A stretch of 64,000 nucleotides of DNA. Source: Planctomycetia bacterium. Its GTDB lineage: Bacteria; Planctomycetota; Phycisphaerae; Phycisphaerales; SM1A02. The DNA lies in contig SXUI01000075.1 in NCBI GenBank assembly GCA_005790605.1, forward strand, positions 1 to 64,000, read 5' to 3'. Shown piece by piece: positions 1,562 to 47,809 of this stretch; position 1 is the first letter of the stretch; each line of letters begins with the position of its first letter. Made by a program: the position numbers and the translations under genes. The notes under the pieces were generated by a model. That model was not told the origin of the DNA. It worked only from the letters and a program-made list of their open reading frames with translations, and made no database searches.

Positions 1562-3126
1562 GGCGCATCCTTGCGTTTGCGCTTCGCTCGCGCCGTTTTC
1601 GCCGCGTCACCCATCAGCGCGCGCTCTCGTAGTCGATGGTGATAGTGCTGCGCGAATCGATGCGCTTCGTCGCGGATCGCTTGACACAACTTCAGCCCCG
1701 GATGCTCACGACCAAGTTTGATTGGCTCAGAGGCGTCCATGCGATAGATCAGTTCTTCCTTCTTCGCGAGCGCGATCACAAACGGCGGCTGCACGGCGAG
1801 CTCGCGAAAGGCCTCCATCGCTGCGTGCAATTGCCCGAGTCCACCGTCGATCAGAATGAGATCGGGATAGAGCTCTTGTCCGTCACCCGCATCGCGATAT
1901 CGACGACTCACGACTTCACGAATCGCGCTGTAATCGTCGTTTGAAACGGAACGCACTCGGAAGCGGCGATAGCCATCTTTGAAGGGGCGACCATCCATGA
2001 ACGCCACCTTCGAGCCCACTGTTTCACCACCCTGCAAGTGCGCGATATCGATCGCCTCCATGCACCGAATCGGAGACTCGATACCGAGTGCTCGCTGCAG
2101 ACTGCGCACGCCCGCCATCGGATCTTGCACGAACTGGGTGACCTCTGGTTGCCAGTCGAAGTCACTGTCGTCGTTGCGCATCTCGCGCTCGTCGAGTCGC
2201 GCGATCGCCTTGAGTTGATCCCGCAGGGTTGCTGCGCGCTCAAAGTCAAGCGCTTTCGACGCCTCATGCATCTCTGTCTCAAGTTCGCGAAGCATGGTCG
2301 TGCGCTTCGAAACGAAGAAGCGGAGAAATCGGTCAACGTCCTCGCGATACGCGGCTTTGGAGATGCGTGCCGCGCACGGTGCGGTGCACTGTCCGATCGC
2401 GTGCAGCAGACAAGGGCGGAACCGTGGGAGCTTCGGATCTCCATCCTCAATCGTGAGATCACAGGTACGAAAACGGAAGACCCGCTGCAAGAGCTGCACC
2501 GCTTGGCGAAGGCTTGGACCACTCACAAACGGGCCGAACAATCGAGCGCCCTTTAATCGTGGGTCAGCCGGGTGGCGTGTGATCATCACCGTTGGAAAGT
2601 CTTCGCGCGTCGTCACCGCGAGGTACGGAAATGTCTTGTCATCTTTCAGTGCGGCGTTGAAGGGCGGATGAATGTCCTTCACCAATCGCGATTCAACAAA
2701 CAACGCCTCCCACTCGCTCTCGCATGGCACGGTGTCAAAGTCGACCACGCGATCAAGCATGGGCTGCTTTCGCGCGCCGAGGTCGGTCGACGGGACGAAG
2801 TAACTTGAAACACGATCGCAGAGGCGGAGCGCCTTCCCCACGTAGAGCACCCGACCAAGGGCGTCTTTCATCAGGTAGACGCCGGAAGTCTCCGGAAGCG
2901 CGCGTGCCTTCTCCGACAGCCCACGGAGCCGCCGCGCGCGAGTCTCGAGGTCTTCGACGAGCGGCACGAAGTCCTTCTGCCTCACACTCGCCTCGACGGA
3001 TGACTCTTCGGCTTGCAGCTCGAATGGAAGATCCGGACGGTCTGGGTTGGATTCCTGCGGCACTTGCTCCACAACTTTTGAGGATATTCGGAATCCGAAG
3101 GGCAAAAAAGGCAAGAACCCGTTCAA
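1558..3126 (-). CDS. uvrC: UvrABC excinuclease subunit C, lacking the C-terminal HhH domain
   Basis: UvrC makes both incisions in nucleotide excision repair. The GIY-YIG nuclease is at about residues 82-160 (SGVYLMKD...LYVGKA). The Cys cluster CLLHAIGQCTAPC follows, and the UVR domain that binds UvrB is at about 278-312. The RNase H-like endonuclease domain keeps the acidic set: Asp360 in EAIDIAH, Asp398 in NDDYS, Asp427 in LILIDGG and His489 in RDEAHRF. Only 33 residues follow His489, ending in a basic tail, whereas typical UvrC (about 600 aa) continues into tandem helix-hairpin-helix motifs. The listed start is a TTG at 3126, with about 80 residues before GIY. That extension is unlike the family, so the true start may be a downstream GTG. 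uvrA and uvrB are at the other end of the window. Confidence 0.95.
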   Translation of the reverse strand: MNGFLPFLPFGFRISSKVVEQVPQESNPDRPDLPFELQAEESSVEASVRQKDFVPLVEDLETRARRLRGLSEKARALPETSGVYLMKDALGRVLYVGKALRLCDRVSSYFVPSTDLGARKQPMLDRVVDFDTVPCESEWEALFVESRLVKDIHPPFNAALKDDKTFPYLAVTTREDFPTVMITRHPADPRLKGARLFGPFVSGPSLRQAVQLLQRVFRFRTCDLTIEDGDPKLPRFRPCLLHAIGQCTAPCAARISKAAYREDVDRFLRFFVSKRTTMLRELETEMHEASKALDFERAATLRDQLKAIARLDEREMRNDDSDFDWQPEVTQFVQDPMAGVRSLQRALGIESPIRCMEAIDIAHLQGGETVGSKVAFMDGRPFKDGYRRFRVRSVSNDDYSAIREVVSRRYRDAGDGQELYPDLILIDGGLGQLHAAMEAFRELAVQPPFVIALAKKEELIYRMDASEPIKLGREHPGLKLCQAIRDEAHRFAQHYHHRLRERALMGDAAKTARAKRKRKDAP

Positions 3127-3261
3127 CCCGAGGGAGGGAGCTCTGTATCCTTACCTCTCTATCGACGAAACGCCGATAGTCCGGACCTGACTCATTTCGA
3201 GGTGACCCTCGGCTCCGTGTGGGGCCAGCCTCGAAGTCACCATTTGAAAGGAGCCACCTCT

Positions 3262-3582
3262 ATGAAGACTCTTACGACCCTCGCTTGCCTCTCCCTCGTC
3301 GCCTTCCTCGGCGCATGCAGCTCGACCAACAAGACCAGCGCCCCAGGCTCTGTGTCCGGTTCGTCCGCTTGCTGCGCAACTGAGAAGAAGGCTGCGTGCT
3401 GCCCAGCAGCCGCTGCAACCGCTGCCCCAGGCGCTGTCGCTGGCAAGTCCGGCTGCTGCGCTGCGAAGGCCGCTGAATGCACGGCTGCGAAGGAAGCTGC
3501 TCCAGCCGCTTCTGCTCCTGGCGCTGTCTCCGGCAAGACCGGCTGCTGCGCAGGCAAGACTGGCTGCGGCGCTGCGAAGTAA
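3262..3582 (+). CDS. Small Cys-rich repeat lipoprotein
   Basis: This is a 106-residue predicted lipoprotein. The signal peptide starts MKTLTTLACLSLVAFLGAC, with lipobox LGAC and lipidated Cys19. A strong ribosome site, GAAAGGAG at 3246-3253, fixes this start over an upstream in-frame ATG at 3202. The mature part is almost only Ala, Gly, Lys, Cys, Ser, Thr and Pro, with ten Cys mostly as CC pairs. It holds three 13-residue repeats of the form APG-x-V-x-G-x-x-x-CCA at residues 27-39, 55-67 and 85-97, then a terminal GKTGCG. CC pairs could bind metal or form disulfides; this is inference. I do not recognise the family. It is divergent from uvrC and appears to be a single-gene unit. Confidence 0.8.
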   Translation: MKTLTTLACLSLVAFLGACSSTNKTSAPGSVSGSSACCATEKKAACCPAAAATAAPGAVAGKSGCCAAKAAECTAAKEAAPAASAPGAVSGKTGCCAGKTGCGAAK

Positions 3583-3602
3583 GTGAGGTTCGCCCTCAGA
3601 GC

Positions 3603-3623
3603 CATGACGCGTCACGCGTTATG
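3603..3623 (+). terminator. Possible terminator hairpin after the Cys-rich lipoprotein gene
   Basis: CATGACGCG-TCA-CGCGTTATG folds as a 9-bp stem with one G-T wobble, 20 nt after the stop codon. No T-run follows, so termination is only a possibility. The embedded palindrome TGACGCGTCA could instead be a protein site. Confidence 0.35.
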
Positions 3624-3716
3624 ACTCGCCACAACGCTGGCTTCGGCCGGCACTCGAGTGGAACGCGCGCTTTGCACGCTCAAACTTGAGTTCGCTTCGA
3701 TCTCGTATCGAAACCC

Positions 3717-3813
3717 AACCGCCCCGAGTTTCTCGGGGCGGTTGTCATTCCCCCACCGTTCGGAGTTTCTTCGAACGGTGGGCTTCTCCATGCGCCTGGA
3801 GTTTCTCCGGGCG
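3717..3813 (+). repeat. Three tandem hairpins sharing a GAG-TTT-CTC cap
   Basis: Three consecutive stem-loops lie between the lipoprotein gene and the DUF4920 gene. Hairpin 1 (3717-3743) has a perfect 12-bp stem, AACCGCCCCGAG with its complement, and loop TTT. Hairpin 2 (3752-3782) has a 14-bp stem starting CCCACCGTTCG and loop TTT. Hairpin 3 (3793-3813) has a 9-bp stem, CGCCTGGAG, and loop TTT, and is followed by TTTTT at 3821-3825. The stems differ in sequence, but all are closed by GAG-TTT-CTC or CTT. They could be stacked transcription terminators insulating the promoter at 3865, or an amplified structured repeat. They lie upstream of the likely pyrC-operon promoter, so they are not part of that transcript. 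Confidence 0.75.
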
Positions 3814-3864
3814 ATTGTCCTTTTTGCGCCCTTCCACTCGATTCCCTGCGCGTCTCCATTCTCC

Positions 3865-3870
3865 TACCAT
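3865..3870 (+). promoter_or_regulatory. TACCAT, probable -10 element for DUF4920-pyrC
   Basis: TACCAT is followed by 9 nt and then the ATG at 3880. The same hexamer sits 9-10 nt before gcvH, uvrB and uvrA in this window. The spacing fits a TANNNT -10 box of a leaderless or nearly leaderless mRNA. No Shine-Dalgarno sequence precedes the ATG. No good -35 hexamer was seen. Confidence 0.5.
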
Positions 3871-3879
3871 CTCGCATCC

Positions 3880-4482
3880 ATGAGCACCCTGCTCCGAGTT
3901 GTGGCAGCCGTCTTCCTACCCTGCGCTTTGCAATCACCCGGCTGCACCTATCCGACGAGCGCGACCTACGACGCCGCGCATGGATGGGGGATCTATGGAA
4001 GTTTCCAGCCCACCGTACGAGCGGAAACGCCGGAGATTTCGCCTGACGCGCTGCTCGCCCACGCCGATCAGTTCGTTGGGACGGGTGAACTCCTCGTGCT
4101 CGACGGACATGTATCTGAAGTTTGCAAGACCATGGGATGCTGGCTTGAAGTGCGGGGCCGCGAAGGAAGCACAGTCCTGGTGATGAACAAAGATCACGCA
4201 TTCTTCGTGCCGCGCAACTGTCGCGGTCGTGAGGTGCATGCAACGGGTCATGCAGAGTGGCAGGTGCAAACCGTTGAATTCCTCCAACACCTTGCTGCGG
4301 ACGCTGGAAAAACGAGTGAAGAAATCGCGCTGATCACAGAGGAAGTTCGACGAGTCGTCTTCATCGCCGACTCGGTGATCATGCCAGCGCAAGGTCTCGA
4401 AGAACCAGCCGCACCCCTTCCCGCAGAAACTGTTGCGCAGCCAGAAGTCGGTGGAATGACACCAACAGGAGCATCACGATGA
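3880..4482 (+). CDS. DUF4920-type predicted lipoprotein
   Basis: This 200-residue exported protein has a hydrophobic N-terminus ending in LQSPGC, so Cys22 may be lipidated, although the lipobox is not ideal. The core reads GELLVLDGHVSEVCKTMGCW, then VMNKDHAFFVPRNCRGREVHATG. This is the pattern of DUF4920 proteins, small OB-like periplasmic domains with a conserved CKxxGCW motif whose two Cys may bind metal. The function is unknown. The start was set by TACCAT 9 nt upstream and by the signal peptide; an in-frame extension to 3658 reads through the hairpin repeat and looks non-coding. The stop overlaps the pyrC start as ATGA. Confidence 0.8.
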   Translation: MSTLLRVVAAVFLPCALQSPGCTYPTSATYDAAHGWGIYGSFQPTVRAETPEISPDALLAHADQFVGTGELLVLDGHVSEVCKTMGCWLEVRGREGSTVLVMNKDHAFFVPRNCRGREVHATGHAEWQVQTVEFLQHLAADAGKTSEEIALITEEVRRVVFIADSVIMPAQGLEEPAAPLPAETVAQPEVGGMTPTGASR

Positions 4483-5852
4483 CCGCACATCGAGCATTGC
4501 ACTTCCGAGGAGCGCGTCTCATTGATCCACGCACGCAGCGCGACGAAACCGGGGAACTGCTCGTCGTCGATGATCGCATTCAGTCCATTGCGTTTGGCGG
4601 TCGAGTGGATGCTCCGAAACACGCGGAAGTCATCGATTGTTCTGGCGCGATTCTCTGCCCAGGCTTGATCGATCCGCATGTGCACCTTCGCGAACCGGGC
4701 GGCGAAGCGAAGGAAACAATCTTGACTGGCACCCAGAGTGCTGCCGCGGGCGGATTCACAACCGTCTGCTGCATGCCCAACACGACTCCGTGCCTCGACA
4801 CGGCCATGGCAGTGCGATTCGTCGAAGGACGCGCGGCGGAAGCTGCGAACTCGCGGGTGTTCGTGGTCGGCGCGGCAACGGTTGGACGCAAAGGCGAGCA
4901 GTTAGCACCGATGGCATCGATGTCGCATGCGGGTGCCGTCGCGTTCTCTGACGACGGCGACGGCATCGCGTCCGCAGGCATGATGCGGCGAGTTCTTGAG
5001 GTGTGTAAGACGCTCGATCGCGCATTCATGCAGCACTGTCAGGATCCCACGCTCTCCGAAGGCGGCTTAGTGAACGAAGGTCCGGTTGCGACGCGACTTG
5101 GTCTTCCGCCTTGGCCTCGCGATGCGGAAGAAGTCATGCTTGAGCGCGACCTGCGACTCAATGCACGCATCGACGCTCGCTATCACGCGCAACATCTCTC
5201 AAGCGGCGGCAGCGCGCGCATTCTTCGTGAGGCTCGAGCGCGAGTTGGGTGCGATCGCGCACATCGAATCTCCGGCGAGGCGTCGCCGCATCATCTGTTG
5301 ATGACTTGCGATGCGTGTGAGGGCTACAACACCGGCGCGAAGATGAATCCACCGCTTCGCACGAAGTGGGACATCAGTGAACTCAAACTCGCGATCGCTG
5401 ATGGATCAATTGATGTCCTCGCGACCGATCACGCACCGCACACCGCAGCAGAGAAAGCGCGTGATTTCGCAAGTGCGCCGTTTGGGATCATCGGACTGGA
5501 GTGCGCGCTCGCGCTCTACGCGAAGGCACTGGTGCACGACGGCGTGATCGAATGGCCGCGACTGATTGAACTCCTCACGCTGCAACCCGCGAAACTGTGC
5601 GGTCTCGATCGCAAGGTCGAAGGCATCGGCACGCTGACGGTCGGCGGCGTCGCGGACCTCACCCTCATCGACCCCGAGCACAACTGGACGATTCGTGTCG
5701 ATGCATTCCGCTCGAAGTCGCGAAACTGCCCCTTTGACGGCATGACAGTGCGCGGCAAGGCGATCATGACGATTCGAGCGGGTGAGGTGCTGTTCACGGA
5801 CGACTGCGTGGCAACGCATCTGAGCGCGTCCCAGGCGACATCCGCGCGATAA
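4479..5852 (+). CDS. pyrC: Dihydroorotase
   Basis: This enzyme cyclises N-carbamoyl-aspartate to dihydroorotate in de novo pyrimidine synthesis. The 457 residues match multifunctional-type (class I) dihydroorotases. The metal motif GLIDPHVHLREPGGE has His67 and His69. FTTVCCMPNTTP follows, further metal His lie in FMQHCQD and GEASPHHLLMTCD, and the catalytic Asp segment is VLATDHAPHT. The C-terminal composite beta-sandwich contains the usual VGGVADLTLIDP. The start codon overlaps the DUF4920 stop as ATGA, so the two genes form an operon. No other pyrimidine gene is nearby. The internal GTEELLV-type N-terminal strands (RGARLIDPRTQRDETGELLV) support the chosen start. Confidence 0.96.
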   Translation: MTAHRALHFRGARLIDPRTQRDETGELLVVDDRIQSIAFGGRVDAPKHAEVIDCSGAILCPGLIDPHVHLREPGGEAKETILTGTQSAAAGGFTTVCCMPNTTPCLDTAMAVRFVEGRAAEAANSRVFVVGAATVGRKGEQLAPMASMSHAGAVAFSDDGDGIASAGMMRRVLEVCKTLDRAFMQHCQDPTLSEGGLVNEGPVATRLGLPPWPRDAEEVMLERDLRLNARIDARYHAQHLSSGGSARILREARARVGCDRAHRISGEASPHHLLMTCDACEGYNTGAKMNPPLRTKWDISELKLAIADGSIDVLATDHAPHTAAEKARDFASAPFGIIGLECALALYAKALVHDGVIEWPRLIELLTLQPAKLCGLDRKVEGIGTLTVGGVADLTLIDPEHNWTIRVDAFRSKSRNCPFDGMTVRGKAIMTIRAGEVLFTDDCVATHLSASQATSAR

Positions 5853-5950
5853 GCGCGCGGAATCTTGGGAATTGGAAACGATGGCAGTACTTCGCGGCAG
5901 AATCAGCGCACACTTGGAATGTGCGCACCCGACACCAATCCATCGCCCCT

Positions 5951-8536
5951 ATGCACCGCATCTATGGCGTGCTTCTGGCGGCGCTTCTGCCGAGTGGAGT
6001 CGCACTCGGTCAGGATGCCAATGGAAACGCGCTGCGCGACTCCATTGACCTTCGCAACGGGACAAGCTTGGATTGCAACCACAATGGAGTTCCCGATGAG
6101 GCAGACATCGCGAAGCCAGACTTTCGAGCGGCGATCGAACACTTCGGAGATGCGGCAACACTGAACAATGTCTCCGGCACATGGCCGCTCGATGTCGACC
6201 ACGATCTAGACCTCGACCTCGTCGTCGCATCCTCTTCGGGACCGAGCAATTCCAATCTCACGATTTGGCGCAATGACGGCGGCGCGGGCCTTGTGTACTC
6301 GACCCGCACGACCCTGCTCAACTCCGTCTGTAGCACGGTTCGCACGGGAGATCTCAATGGCGATGGTTGGACGGATGTCGTGGCGGCGGACAGCGGATTC
6401 CCTCAAGTCATTGTCATGCTCGCCACAGGCGCGGGGACCTTCTCGACGCCTGTTCGTCTCGTTGCCGCGTCGCGCGGGACTGGACTCGCGATTGCCGATC
6501 TTGACAACGACGGCGACATCGACATCGCGATGCCTGGGTTTGCATCCAACGCGGTGGATGTGTTTCGAAACAACGGGACCGGTGGGTTTGGGCCGAAGCA
6601 GACATTCGCGTGTGGAGCCCAGCCCGTTGCGGTGAGCGCCGCCGACTTCAATGGGGACGGATTGCGCGACCTCGCCGTCGCCAATTCCTTCATTTCATCT
6701 CCAGGCGTTGGGACGGTCTCGTTGCTGCGAAACACTGGGAATGCAGCGTTTGTCACGCACTCCACACTCACCATTCTGGGGCACGCGGAAACTGCAACCA
6801 GCTCGAGGCCGCACGACCTCGTGCTCGCGGACGTTGACTCGGACAGCGATGCAGACCTGCTCGTGTGCGCGAAGAGCAGCAACTCCATTCGCATCTACAG
6901 CAATGATGGCCTCGGCGCGTTCACGAATACGCAGACGCTCGGTCCTCTCGAGTCAGTGGGAGGCATCGCCGATCGATTCATCTGCGAGAACCTCGACAGC
7001 GACACCGCGCCTGAACTCGCATGGTGCGATTCCGCCGCGCGTGCGGTCCGGCTCTACGACAATGCCGCTGGGACATTCGTGTACAGCCAGGCGTACGGCG
7101 CAGGCACCGAGGGACCGATTGCCGTATCTGCGGGCGATCTGACTGGCGATGGTTTGCCCGAAATCGTGACCGCAGGCAACGCCAGCAACGCCTTCTCAAC
7201 CTTCAAGAATGAGGGAGAACTCAACTTTGATGCCGTAGGGCACATTCGTCGACTCGACTCAAACTTCTATCCGCGACTCGGCGAGTTCACGGGCGACCTG
7301 CTCACAGACATCCTCACCTATTCGACCTTCGATAATCCAGCGTCGATTCGAATCGCACCGGGCGTCGGCGATGCCCGATTCGGAACGACGACAACAATCC
7401 CACTCTCAACTTCTGGCACGATTCTGCCGCGTGACCTCAATCATGACGGACATCTCGATCTGCTCTCGATCGGCGGCCACTGTTTCGTGAAGTTCAGCAA
7501 TGGCGACGGAACATTCGGGCCGGAGATCTCATCGAATGTCTATGTCTACGCCAACGCGATCACTGCCGATGTCAACAGCGATGGCAATCTTGACCTGCTC
7601 TGGCAGTACGCCGTGAGTCCCAATGAGCCGTCATGGGTCCGCATCAGCCTTGGGAACTCCAAGGGATTGTTCGCGCCTTTTTACGAAGTTGACACACCGC
7701 GGTTTCTTGGAAGCATCTGGACGGGCGATCTTTCGGGCGACGGCGCGCCTGAACTCTTCGTCGGGCTCGGTGGCGGCGCGATTGGAGATCCCGCGATGGA
7801 AACCTTCATCGTGTATCCCAATCTCGGCGATGGAACATTTGGCCCGTACTCCGTGTATGCCAACGAACTGAACCCAAACTTCTCCGGTGGTGTCGGAGGA
7901 TTCGCATGGGTTGATATCGATGGCGATGGCGACAATGATCTCCTCGGACAGTCAACGCGAACTTGGCTCTTCCGAAACAACAAGCATCAGCTCGCAACGC
8001 CCGTGATGCTCGGGGGGTTCGCAAACTACGCGTGGACGGACTACGGCGCTGCGATCTTTGACGCAGACGGCGATGGTGATCTCGATTTCTACGGGGCGCG
8101 CTCCGTCAGCGGCATCTCATCCCCCGCGATTTTCTTCAATGATGGCAATGGCGGATTCGGTGAGGGTGATGTCGGGCCGTGCCTCGCAGTGATGCGATAT
8201 CGCGCGAGTCCGGATGTCTTGCTCTTCGGTGACGCCGACAACAACGGTCGCGTCGACATCTTGGCGAAACCAAACGGCTATGCGGACTGGTATCTGCACC
8301 TCAACCTGCCGCAAGCGAGTTCCGACTGCGACGGGGACAGCGTGCCAAACGAGTGTGACGCCGACGCATGCTCAAGCGGGAATCCAAGCGATCTCAACCT
8401 TGATGGCGTCGTGAACGCGGCCGATCTCGCGATCCTGCTGAGCGCGTGGGAGACCCCCGACGCTGCTGCAGACATCAACCGAGATGGCATTGTCAATGCG
8501 GCAGATCTCAGCGTACTTCTCTCGAGCTGGAGTTAA
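5951..8536 (+). CDS. Secreted FG-GAP/VCBS-repeat protein with dockerin-like tail
   Basis: The predicted signal peptide is MHRIYGVLLAALLPSGVALG, cleaved before QDANGN. The body is a long run of FG-GAP/VCBS-type repeats recognised by D-x-D-x-D-G-x-x-D calcium loops such as DLNGDGWTDVV, DLDNDGDIDIA, DFNGDGLRDLA and DIDGDGDNDLL. These are expected to form one or more beta-propellers. Near the end, CDGDSVPNECDADAC resembles a thrombospondin type-3 loop. Two dockerin-like EF-hand helices (DLNLDGVVNAADLAILLSAW and DINRDGIVNAADLSVLLSSW) end the protein. It is probably an extracellular or surface protein of unknown substrate. The start at 5951 is preferred over 5921 because it begins the signal peptide directly. 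GCGCACA-loop-TGTGCGC (5906-5926) is a small hairpin upstream. Confidence 0.88.
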   Translation: MHRIYGVLLAALLPSGVALGQDANGNALRDSIDLRNGTSLDCNHNGVPDEADIAKPDFRAAIEHFGDAATLNNVSGTWPLDVDHDLDLDLVVASSSGPSNSNLTIWRNDGGAGLVYSTRTTLLNSVCSTVRTGDLNGDGWTDVVAADSGFPQVIVMLATGAGTFSTPVRLVAASRGTGLAIADLDNDGDIDIAMPGFASNAVDVFRNNGTGGFGPKQTFACGAQPVAVSAADFNGDGLRDLAVANSFISSPGVGTVSLLRNTGNAAFVTHSTLTILGHAETATSSRPHDLVLADVDSDSDADLLVCAKSSNSIRIYSNDGLGAFTNTQTLGPLESVGGIADRFICENLDSDTAPELAWCDSAARAVRLYDNAAGTFVYSQAYGAGTEGPIAVSAGDLTGDGLPEIVTAGNASNAFSTFKNEGELNFDAVGHIRRLDSNFYPRLGEFTGDLLTDILTYSTFDNPASIRIAPGVGDARFGTTTTIPLSTSGTILPRDLNHDGHLDLLSIGGHCFVKFSNGDGTFGPEISSNVYVYANAITADVNSDGNLDLLWQYAVSPNEPSWVRISLGNSKGLFAPFYEVDTPRFLGSIWTGDLSGDGAPELFVGLGGGAIGDPAMETFIVYPNLGDGTFGPYSVYANELNPNFSGGVGGFAWVDIDGDGDNDLLGQSTRTWLFRNNKHQLATPVMLGGFANYAWTDYGAAIFDADGDGDLDFYGARSVSGISSPAIFFNDGNGGFGEGDVGPCLAVMRYRASPDVLLFGDADNNGRVDILAKPNGYADWYLHLNLPQASSDCDGDSVPNECDADACSSGNPSDLNLDGVVNAADLAILLSAWETPDAAADINRDGIVNAADLSVLLSSWS

Positions 8537-46654: not shown

Positions 46655-47809
46655 CTTACCCCCCATACCACCGCCACCAAGTCCACGGCCGCCGCCGCCA
46701 CCACCGCCACCGTTGTTGTTGCCGGTGTTCTTGTTGCGGGCGATTTCCTTCTTGAGGTTGTCAACTTCGATTTCGAGTTGGAGTCGGGTGACGCCCATTT
46801 CGCGCTGCAGGCGACGCTCCACCGCGGGGTATTGCTTCATCGCGCCGATGACCTTCTCGAAGAGCGACTTTCGTTGACCGAGACCCTTCATGCCTTCGTC
46901 GACATTCTGGGAGCTCTCGAGCCACTCAATGCAGCGGTCGTACAACTTGCGCCAGCTGTCGACATAGTCGTTGTAAATCTCTTTGCCCGACTCGGCATTT
47001 TCAAACTCGCGGTACCCGAGCAAGAACATGAGATCATCAAGCGAATCGGCAACGCCATCGGCTAGGCCGGTGTCTTCCGCGGTGGTCGCGTTGAAGTTCA
47101 CGGTTGCCTCTTTGTTGCTATCGACGGTCCAGACGCCTGAGGTGTTCGGAAGCCACGCTGACTCGCGTCCTTCAAACTTCACGCTGAGCGTCTTCTCAGG
47201 CAGGAGCATCGCGTCACCGAGTTCAAGCGGATAGCCGCCCTGCTGAAGAAATCCCTTGCCGATACCCGTCCAAGCCGCGAGCATTTTCGCGGCGACATCT
47301 GGATCGGACCAACCGCCAGCAAGTTTCGCGACATTCTGCAAACCCCAGAGGCGCGCATCGCTCGTCATATACATGTCGGGCCACGCGAACGCCATGAGCG
47401 AACCGAAGCCGACAGAGTCTTGAATCCACATCACCTGCGGCACATCTCGAAGGTCCTCTCGCAAACTCTTCACGAGGTCGCGGTACTCCTCGAGGTGCAC
47501 CTGGCCAGCTTCCTTCTGGTCATCGTTCTTCAGATAAAAGTTGTTGTCGATGTCGGCGCTCTTGAGCTCGATGATGATGATGTCTGGCTTCACCTTCTTC
47601 GCATCCGCGACGATCGCCTTGTAGGGCTGCGGATGAATGTCGGTACCCATCTGTCCGTGCATCGGGATGACATACACCTTCGGGGTTGAAAGAGTCGAAG
47701 GGAACGCCTTTCGATTCACTTCCGAGGCGGTCTGCGCAGTTGCGGCTGCGGAACCGGTTGCAACGGCGACCAACGCAAGAAGGGTGGGAAGACTGCGAAT
47801 CGTCGACAT
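46643..47809 (-). CDS. Secreted ClpP/SppA-fold protein with degenerate active site and Gly-rich tail
   Basis: The signal peptide is within MSTIRSLPTLLALVAVATGS. The ClpP-like domain starts VYVIPMHGQMGTDIHPQ, parallel to the neighbour at 45173. The substrate-loop motif DSPGG is replaced by ELKSA at 81-85. The segment VMWIQDSVGFGSLMAFAWPD aligns with VVAWIKRAISAAAFTSLHCD so that the nucleophile Ser is replaced by Gly134. It may be a non-catalytic paralogue, although Ser132 or Ser137 are nearby. A helical part with coiled-coil character follows, and the C-terminus is poly-Gly with Arg/Asn. TGAGG precedes the ATG. It is probably co-transcribed with the downstream paralogue. Confidence 0.75.
   Translation of the reverse strand: MSTIRSLPTLLALVAVATGSAAATAQTASEVNRKAFPSTLSTPKVYVIPMHGQMGTDIHPQPYKAIVADAKKVKPDIIIIELKSADIDNNFYLKNDDQKEAGQVHLEEYRDLVKSLREDLRDVPQVMWIQDSVGFGSLMAFAWPDMYMTSDARLWGLQNVAKLAGGWSDPDVAAKMLAAWTGIGKGFLQQGGYPLELGDAMLLPEKTLSVKFEGRESAWLPNTSGVWTVDSNKEATVNFNATTAEDTGLADGVADSLDDLMFLLGYREFENAESGKEIYNDYVDSWRKLYDRCIEWLESSQNVDEGMKGLGQRKSLFEKVIGAMKQYPAVERRLQREMGVTRLQLEIEVDNLKKEIARNKNTGNNNGGGGGGGGRGLGGGGMGGKRGL

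Follow-up and report, generated by a model that had tools for sequence, protein, structure and literature searches.

The window analysed, a 64,000-nt stretch of DNA, belongs to a genome of 3.03 Mb that is assembled in 80 contigs (G000, the own genome). On its plus strand, a gene for a small, Cys-rich, lipoprotein-like protein of 106 aa (positions 3262-3582), for which no Pfam family was matched, is followed by a gene for a DUF4920 protein (PF16267; 3880-4482, plus strand). The stop codon of the latter overlaps the start of pyrC, which encodes dihydroorotase (4479-5852, plus strand). Between the lipoprotein-like and DUF4920 genes lies an array of three terminator hairpins, separated from the first gene by the remaining 3' untranslated region (3583-3715, plus strand) with four further small hairpins. 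Downstream of the array, TACCAT at 3865-3870 (plus strand) is the likely -10 box of the DUF4920 gene, with the ATG 9 nt further on; an earlier note on this DNA had placed the TACCAT promoter of the pyrC operon directly after the hairpins, and the box is indeed there. TACCAT followed by ATG after 7 to 11 nt was counted at 24 places in the own genome, where the reversed control gave one, and at 79 against 7 over four genomes of the genus. Given this strong excess, TACCAT probably represents a near-leaderless promoter in common use. Of 15 orthologous loci from one other genus, 14 had TATCAT as the box behind the terminator, or TATGAT as the first match (G118, G112 and G120).

The four small hairpins of the 3' untranslated region (3585-3597, 3599-3627, 3636-3651 and 3696-3712, plus strand) are kept in the four genus genomes. 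Three pairs of the hairpin at 3599-3627 and two pairs of that at 3636-3651 were changed on both sides, with covariation of 0.247 compared with 0.122, from four sequences only. A model of this region matched in the genus at E ≤ 3e-35 only here, where its four source sequences lie; the next best match was in G035 (E 6e-7). The upstream hairpin TTCGAT-N5-ATCGAA was considered as a dispersed binding site and rejected: with any spacer, the arms occurred at four places in the own genome and at three, one and two in the congeners, and the sites elsewhere carried other spacers than the conserved hairpin. In a different genus of the family, locus L204 (G077:C40, about 7145-7330) contained three tandem copies of about 56 nt, each with CTTCGATC-CGAATCGAATC, a repeat that resembles the conserved hairpin at 3696-3712.

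Copy 1 of the array (3716-3744, plus strand) has a complete stem of 13 pairs with a TTT loop, folds at -25.7 kcal/mol and is followed by the T-poor tail TCATTCCC. Copy 2 (3752-3782, plus strand) has a 14-pair stem including one G-U, a TTT loop, a folding energy of -24.0 kcal/mol and the likewise T-poor tail CTTCTCCA. In copy 3 (3789-3817, plus strand; -17.4 kcal/mol, TTT loop), a 13-pair frame that includes two mismatches encloses a core of nine pairs (3793-3813). Its tail, TCCTTTTT (3818-3825, plus strand), is the best T-tract surviving in the array and contains the five T reported earlier behind the third hairpin. In all three, the TTT loop is closed by a G-C, an A-T and then a G-C pair (G-T in copy 2), and both the sequence and the folds confirmed hairpins at the place first described, closing on GAG-TTT-CTC (GAG-TTT-CTT in copy 2).

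The array hairpins have the stable GC-rich stem and small loop of intrinsic terminators. Copies 1 and 2 combine full stems with poor T-tracts and so lack the good U-tract that is a classical feature of terminators; copy 3 has kept its five T on a weaker stem. The first 8 bases past the 13-pair frame contain three, three and six T in copies 1, 2 and 3, and six in each of the three congeners, whose hairpins fold at -23.9 to -24.2 kcal/mol. Copy 1 falls below the rule used for the orthologues (at least four T in 9 bases). By the scanner's definition, terminator-like sites were not commoner in 3000-6000 than in shuffled sequence (2 against 2.4). Terminators on the opposite strand were rejected, the minus-strand T run after the stem being at most TTT (copy 1) and absent for copies 2 and 3.

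Orthologous loci were collected from DUF4920 relatives at E values up to 1e-40, which were present in 18 other genomes among 181 of the family: three in the genus (congeners G001, G002 and G003) and 15 in the one other genus. A further 17 distant DUF4920 loci beyond the genus lie outside this count. The 400 nt before each DUF4920 match (297 nt in G120) were scanned for terminators. All 18 loci had one hairpin of 11 to 14 pairs (12 or 13 in the congeners) followed by at least four T in 9 bases; the tail started CTTTTT in 10 of them, and the weakest was TTTCATGAC (G114). Five loci had one additional hairpin of 8 or 9 pairs that lacked a T-rich tail, and none of these resembled the terminator of its locus. 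A second match in G112 was not counted, being a chance inverted repeat that spans the -10 box and the start codon. No second terminator copy was found within 400 nt upstream of DUF4920 in any orthologous locus. The best other 35-mer agreed with the locus's own terminator at 15 to 20 of 35 positions in 17 loci and at 28 in the window; that of G116 reached 23/35 and lay inside the Cys-rich coding sequence.

In 17 of the 18 loci, a similar Cys-rich gene precedes the terminator (in G120 the contig is too short to show it), and the position at a gene end is thus kept in the relatives. A terminator-like element at a gene end, one of the earlier readings, is upheld by a single terminator-like hairpin at the same place in 18/18 loci. 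The relatives suggest that the lipoprotein transcript of the window would end at the array. The same gene pair and terminator were present in JASGCF010000013.1 (L149, G119), a record titled Limnohabitans sp.; its name looks wrong, since the contig belongs to this genome family. The terminator of G001 reads CAGTCGCTCGGAG-TTT-CTCCGAGCGACTG-CTTTTTTA, with the GAG-TTT-CTC tip of the window, that of G003 CACTCGTCCGGAG-CTC-CTCCGGACGAGTG-CTTTTTTA and that of G002 CAGTCGCCCGGA-ATCT-TCCGGGCGACTG-CTTTTTTG. From terminator to TACCAT the distance is 21 nt in G001, 46 nt in G003 and 57 nt in G002; in the window, TACCAT follows copy 3 at 47 nt. By these distances, copy 3 occupies the position of the single terminator, which leaves copies 1 and 2 as the additional ones.

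The three copies form a gap-free direct repeat of 35 nt, spaced by 37 and 36 nt, with 66% (copy 2) and 80% (copy 3) identity to copy 1. On both strands of the window, no 35-mer outside the array matched copy 1 or copy 2 at 22 or more of 35 positions, and a single one, at position 47481, matched copy 3 at 22/35. Because the repeat is in register and such 35-mers are this scarce, the outer stems have to be regarded as diverged and not, as the earlier note had it, as unrelated. At the outer 20 stem positions, 12 (copies 1 and 2), 14 (copies 1 and 3) and 10 (copies 2 and 3) matched; simulated hairpins, with an assumed 70% GC, reached this agreement with probabilities of 0.04, 0.009 and 0.13, respectively. 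This comparison is weak alone, and the case for duplication is carried by the register and by the relatives: the copies can be aligned in register, and the relatives are single-copy.

The array is best read as a real triplication of an ordinary terminator, so far seen in this genome alone. We consider it very probable that the three hairpins are tandem, diverged duplicates of one intrinsic terminator that would end the lipoprotein gene, the duplicated unit being 36 to 37 nt long and containing hairpin and tail. The GAG-TTT-CTC cap common to the copies is most simply ancestral and derived from duplication of one terminator, since a single T-tailed hairpin is present in 18/18 loci and one congener has the same tip. 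That the cap should have arisen independently three times had been thought unlikely from the outset; this judgement is supported, and duplication is the likeliest reason. Judging by titles, no paper on duplicated intrinsic terminators was among the open-licence papers listed.

As far as can be predicted from sequence, the most likely role of the array is to stop the upstream transcript and to insulate the DUF4920-pyrC promoter; termination at the array is itself inferred. RNA polymerase leaving the lipoprotein gene would meet two strong hairpins with weak U-tracts, at which it might pause or be partially released. The third hairpin, followed by UUUUU, would then release most of the remaining complexes, and read-through would be kept off the near-leaderless TACCAT promoter of DUF4920-pyrC. 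Copies 1 and 2 may later protect the 3' end of the RNA.

A possible, though on balance unlikely, extension of this last step is that the extra hairpins act post-transcriptionally, keeping exonucleases from the lipoprotein mRNA by stabilising its 3' end, while copy 3 alone terminates. This would account for the retention of whole stems by copies 1 and 2 without a good T-tract, and conserved hairpins are also present in the 3' region upstream of the array. Against it, the single orthologues are plain terminators with T-rich tails, from which the ancestral role was probably termination, although the copies could do both. Stabilisation is compatible with an origin by duplication, and its likelihood overlaps with that of the duplicated-terminator reading. 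More tentatively, and with some doubt, we propose that triplication was followed by a splitting of the terminator into halves, copies 1 and 2 keeping the stem without the U-tract and copy 3 the U-tract with only part of the stem, so that nothing short of the full array would do the work of the ancestral single terminator; template switching during replication may have kept the stems paired.

We infer that the duplication took place in this lineage, after its split from the three sequenced congeners. Counted over 13 pairs, differences amounted to 4-7 between copies, 3-6 between a copy and a congener and 1-3 between congeners. Relaxed constraint on duplicates would give such copies, which have drifted further than single terminators. 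The copies differ from one another at least as much as from the congeners, which makes a recent date less secure. It is also what would be seen if the array were ancestral to the genus and copies had been lost in the three congeners, perhaps in the other genus too; this history is improbable, as it requires several losses in place of one gain and a single copy was present in 18/18 loci.

The three hairpins could instead be part of a compact structured RNA, an sRNA or a riboregulator, and not terminators at all. For 3700-3840, the folding energy is -71.5 kcal/mol, far below the mean of -40.6 kcal/mol in shuffled sequence (z -9.04; 0/200 shuffles as good). Such an RNA would suit the longer stretch 3580-3840, which folds at z -9.49. 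We regard it as very unlikely, because each hairpin folds independently, the number of hairpins is not conserved in the relatives, and no Rfam family reached its gathering threshold. The only two Rfam matches up to E 5 scored well below it, at 20.2 bits (threshold 45) and 15.5 bits (threshold 60).

The window contains the 9-mer GAGTTTCTC four times, where 0.68 occurrences were expected; none of 100 shuffles reached four. Of 61 genomes searched in the order, 53 had it more often than its reversed control. That this genome favours GAG-TTT-CTC as a terminator cap and acquired it three times independently is scarcely credible: the 9-mer does outnumber the reversed control 2.5-fold (116 against 46), but among 99 of the 116 sites, 92 had 0-2 further pairs, five had 3, and only copy 1 (10) and copy 3 (6) had at least 4, and the outer stems align as well. 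The genome-wide excess therefore does not come from hairpins. The search for the cap within inverted repeats that had been proposed with the first description thus returned, among these 99 sites, array copies 1 and 3 only. With 2/99 sites in hairpins, neither the strongly favoured terminator loop put forward there nor a REP-like dispersed palindromic repeat was recovered, and a loop favoured throughout the genome was rejected on the same count.

A dispersed terminator family was also rejected. With covariance model R1, built from the three copies and the three congener hairpins, four matches at E < 1e-4 were obtained in the own genome (150 of 703 first-look candidates scored), all in the array and one of them being copy 1 on the other strand; matches elsewhere in this genome were weak (best E 0.058). 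The best eight matches in the four genus genomes were all at this locus; as six are training sequences and two are other-strand hairpins, this says no more than that a better copy is absent from the rest of these genomes. Two congeners have single similar hairpins at other places (G001:C3, E 9.9e-5; G003:C77, E 9.2e-4).

Covariation was measured in two alignments, with statistics that ignore relatedness. The genus alignment comprised six hairpins, the three window copies and those of the three congeners; 97.4% of its cells pair, and 6 of 13 pairs were changed on both sides. Its covariation was 0.462 against 0.197 in shuffles (sd 0.042; 0/500), relatedness being ignored and three of the six rows being copies. 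The larger alignment (A3) comprised 20 hairpins: to the three copies were added those of 17 orthologues, the 18th (G111) being omitted for its 11-nt loop. Here 99.1% of cells pair, 8 of 11 pairs were changed on both sides, and covariation was 0.527 against 0.155 in shuffles (0/500), again with relatedness ignored. The number of pair types was not outstanding, the observed value being reached by 197 and 43 of 500 shuffles. When the partners were slid by 1 to 3 columns, pairing fell to 28-49% in both alignments.

Diverging stems can be kept paired by selection on the hairpins or by template switching at the palindrome. Template switching has been described as creating and maintaining RNA hairpins, with RNA genes such as rRNA among the cases treated in that account (PMC8794818). 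As in the template-switch hairpins described there, several stem pairs of the array have both partners replaced with pairing and loop retained (PMC8794818). In the window, selection explains the pattern equally well.

The array offers a natural case of the origin of tandem terminators, in which the single form, the duplication unit and the divergence can be seen side by side. It would mark the border at which the lipoprotein transcript gives way to the transcription unit of pyrC, and it illustrates that a common hairpin cap may record ancestry rather than function. With intrinsic (Rho-independent) terminators it shares the GC-rich stem, the small loop and the position at a gene end, together with the T-tract behind copy 3 and the T-rich tails behind the 18 orthologues; it departs from them in copies 1 and 2, which are without a good T-tract. 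Terminators without a U-trail make up the I-shaped class of WebGeSTer, and copies 1 and 2, known from sequence alone, resemble these in being strong stems without a U-tract. Tandem terminators are represented by T1-T2 of rrnB. In Escherichia coli, galM is described as being followed by a Rho-independent and then a Rho-dependent terminator in tandem (PMC9927376). Like the galM pair, the array would place serial stop signals behind one gene; unlike that pair, as it is described there, its members are recognisable as duplicates of one another (PMC9927376).
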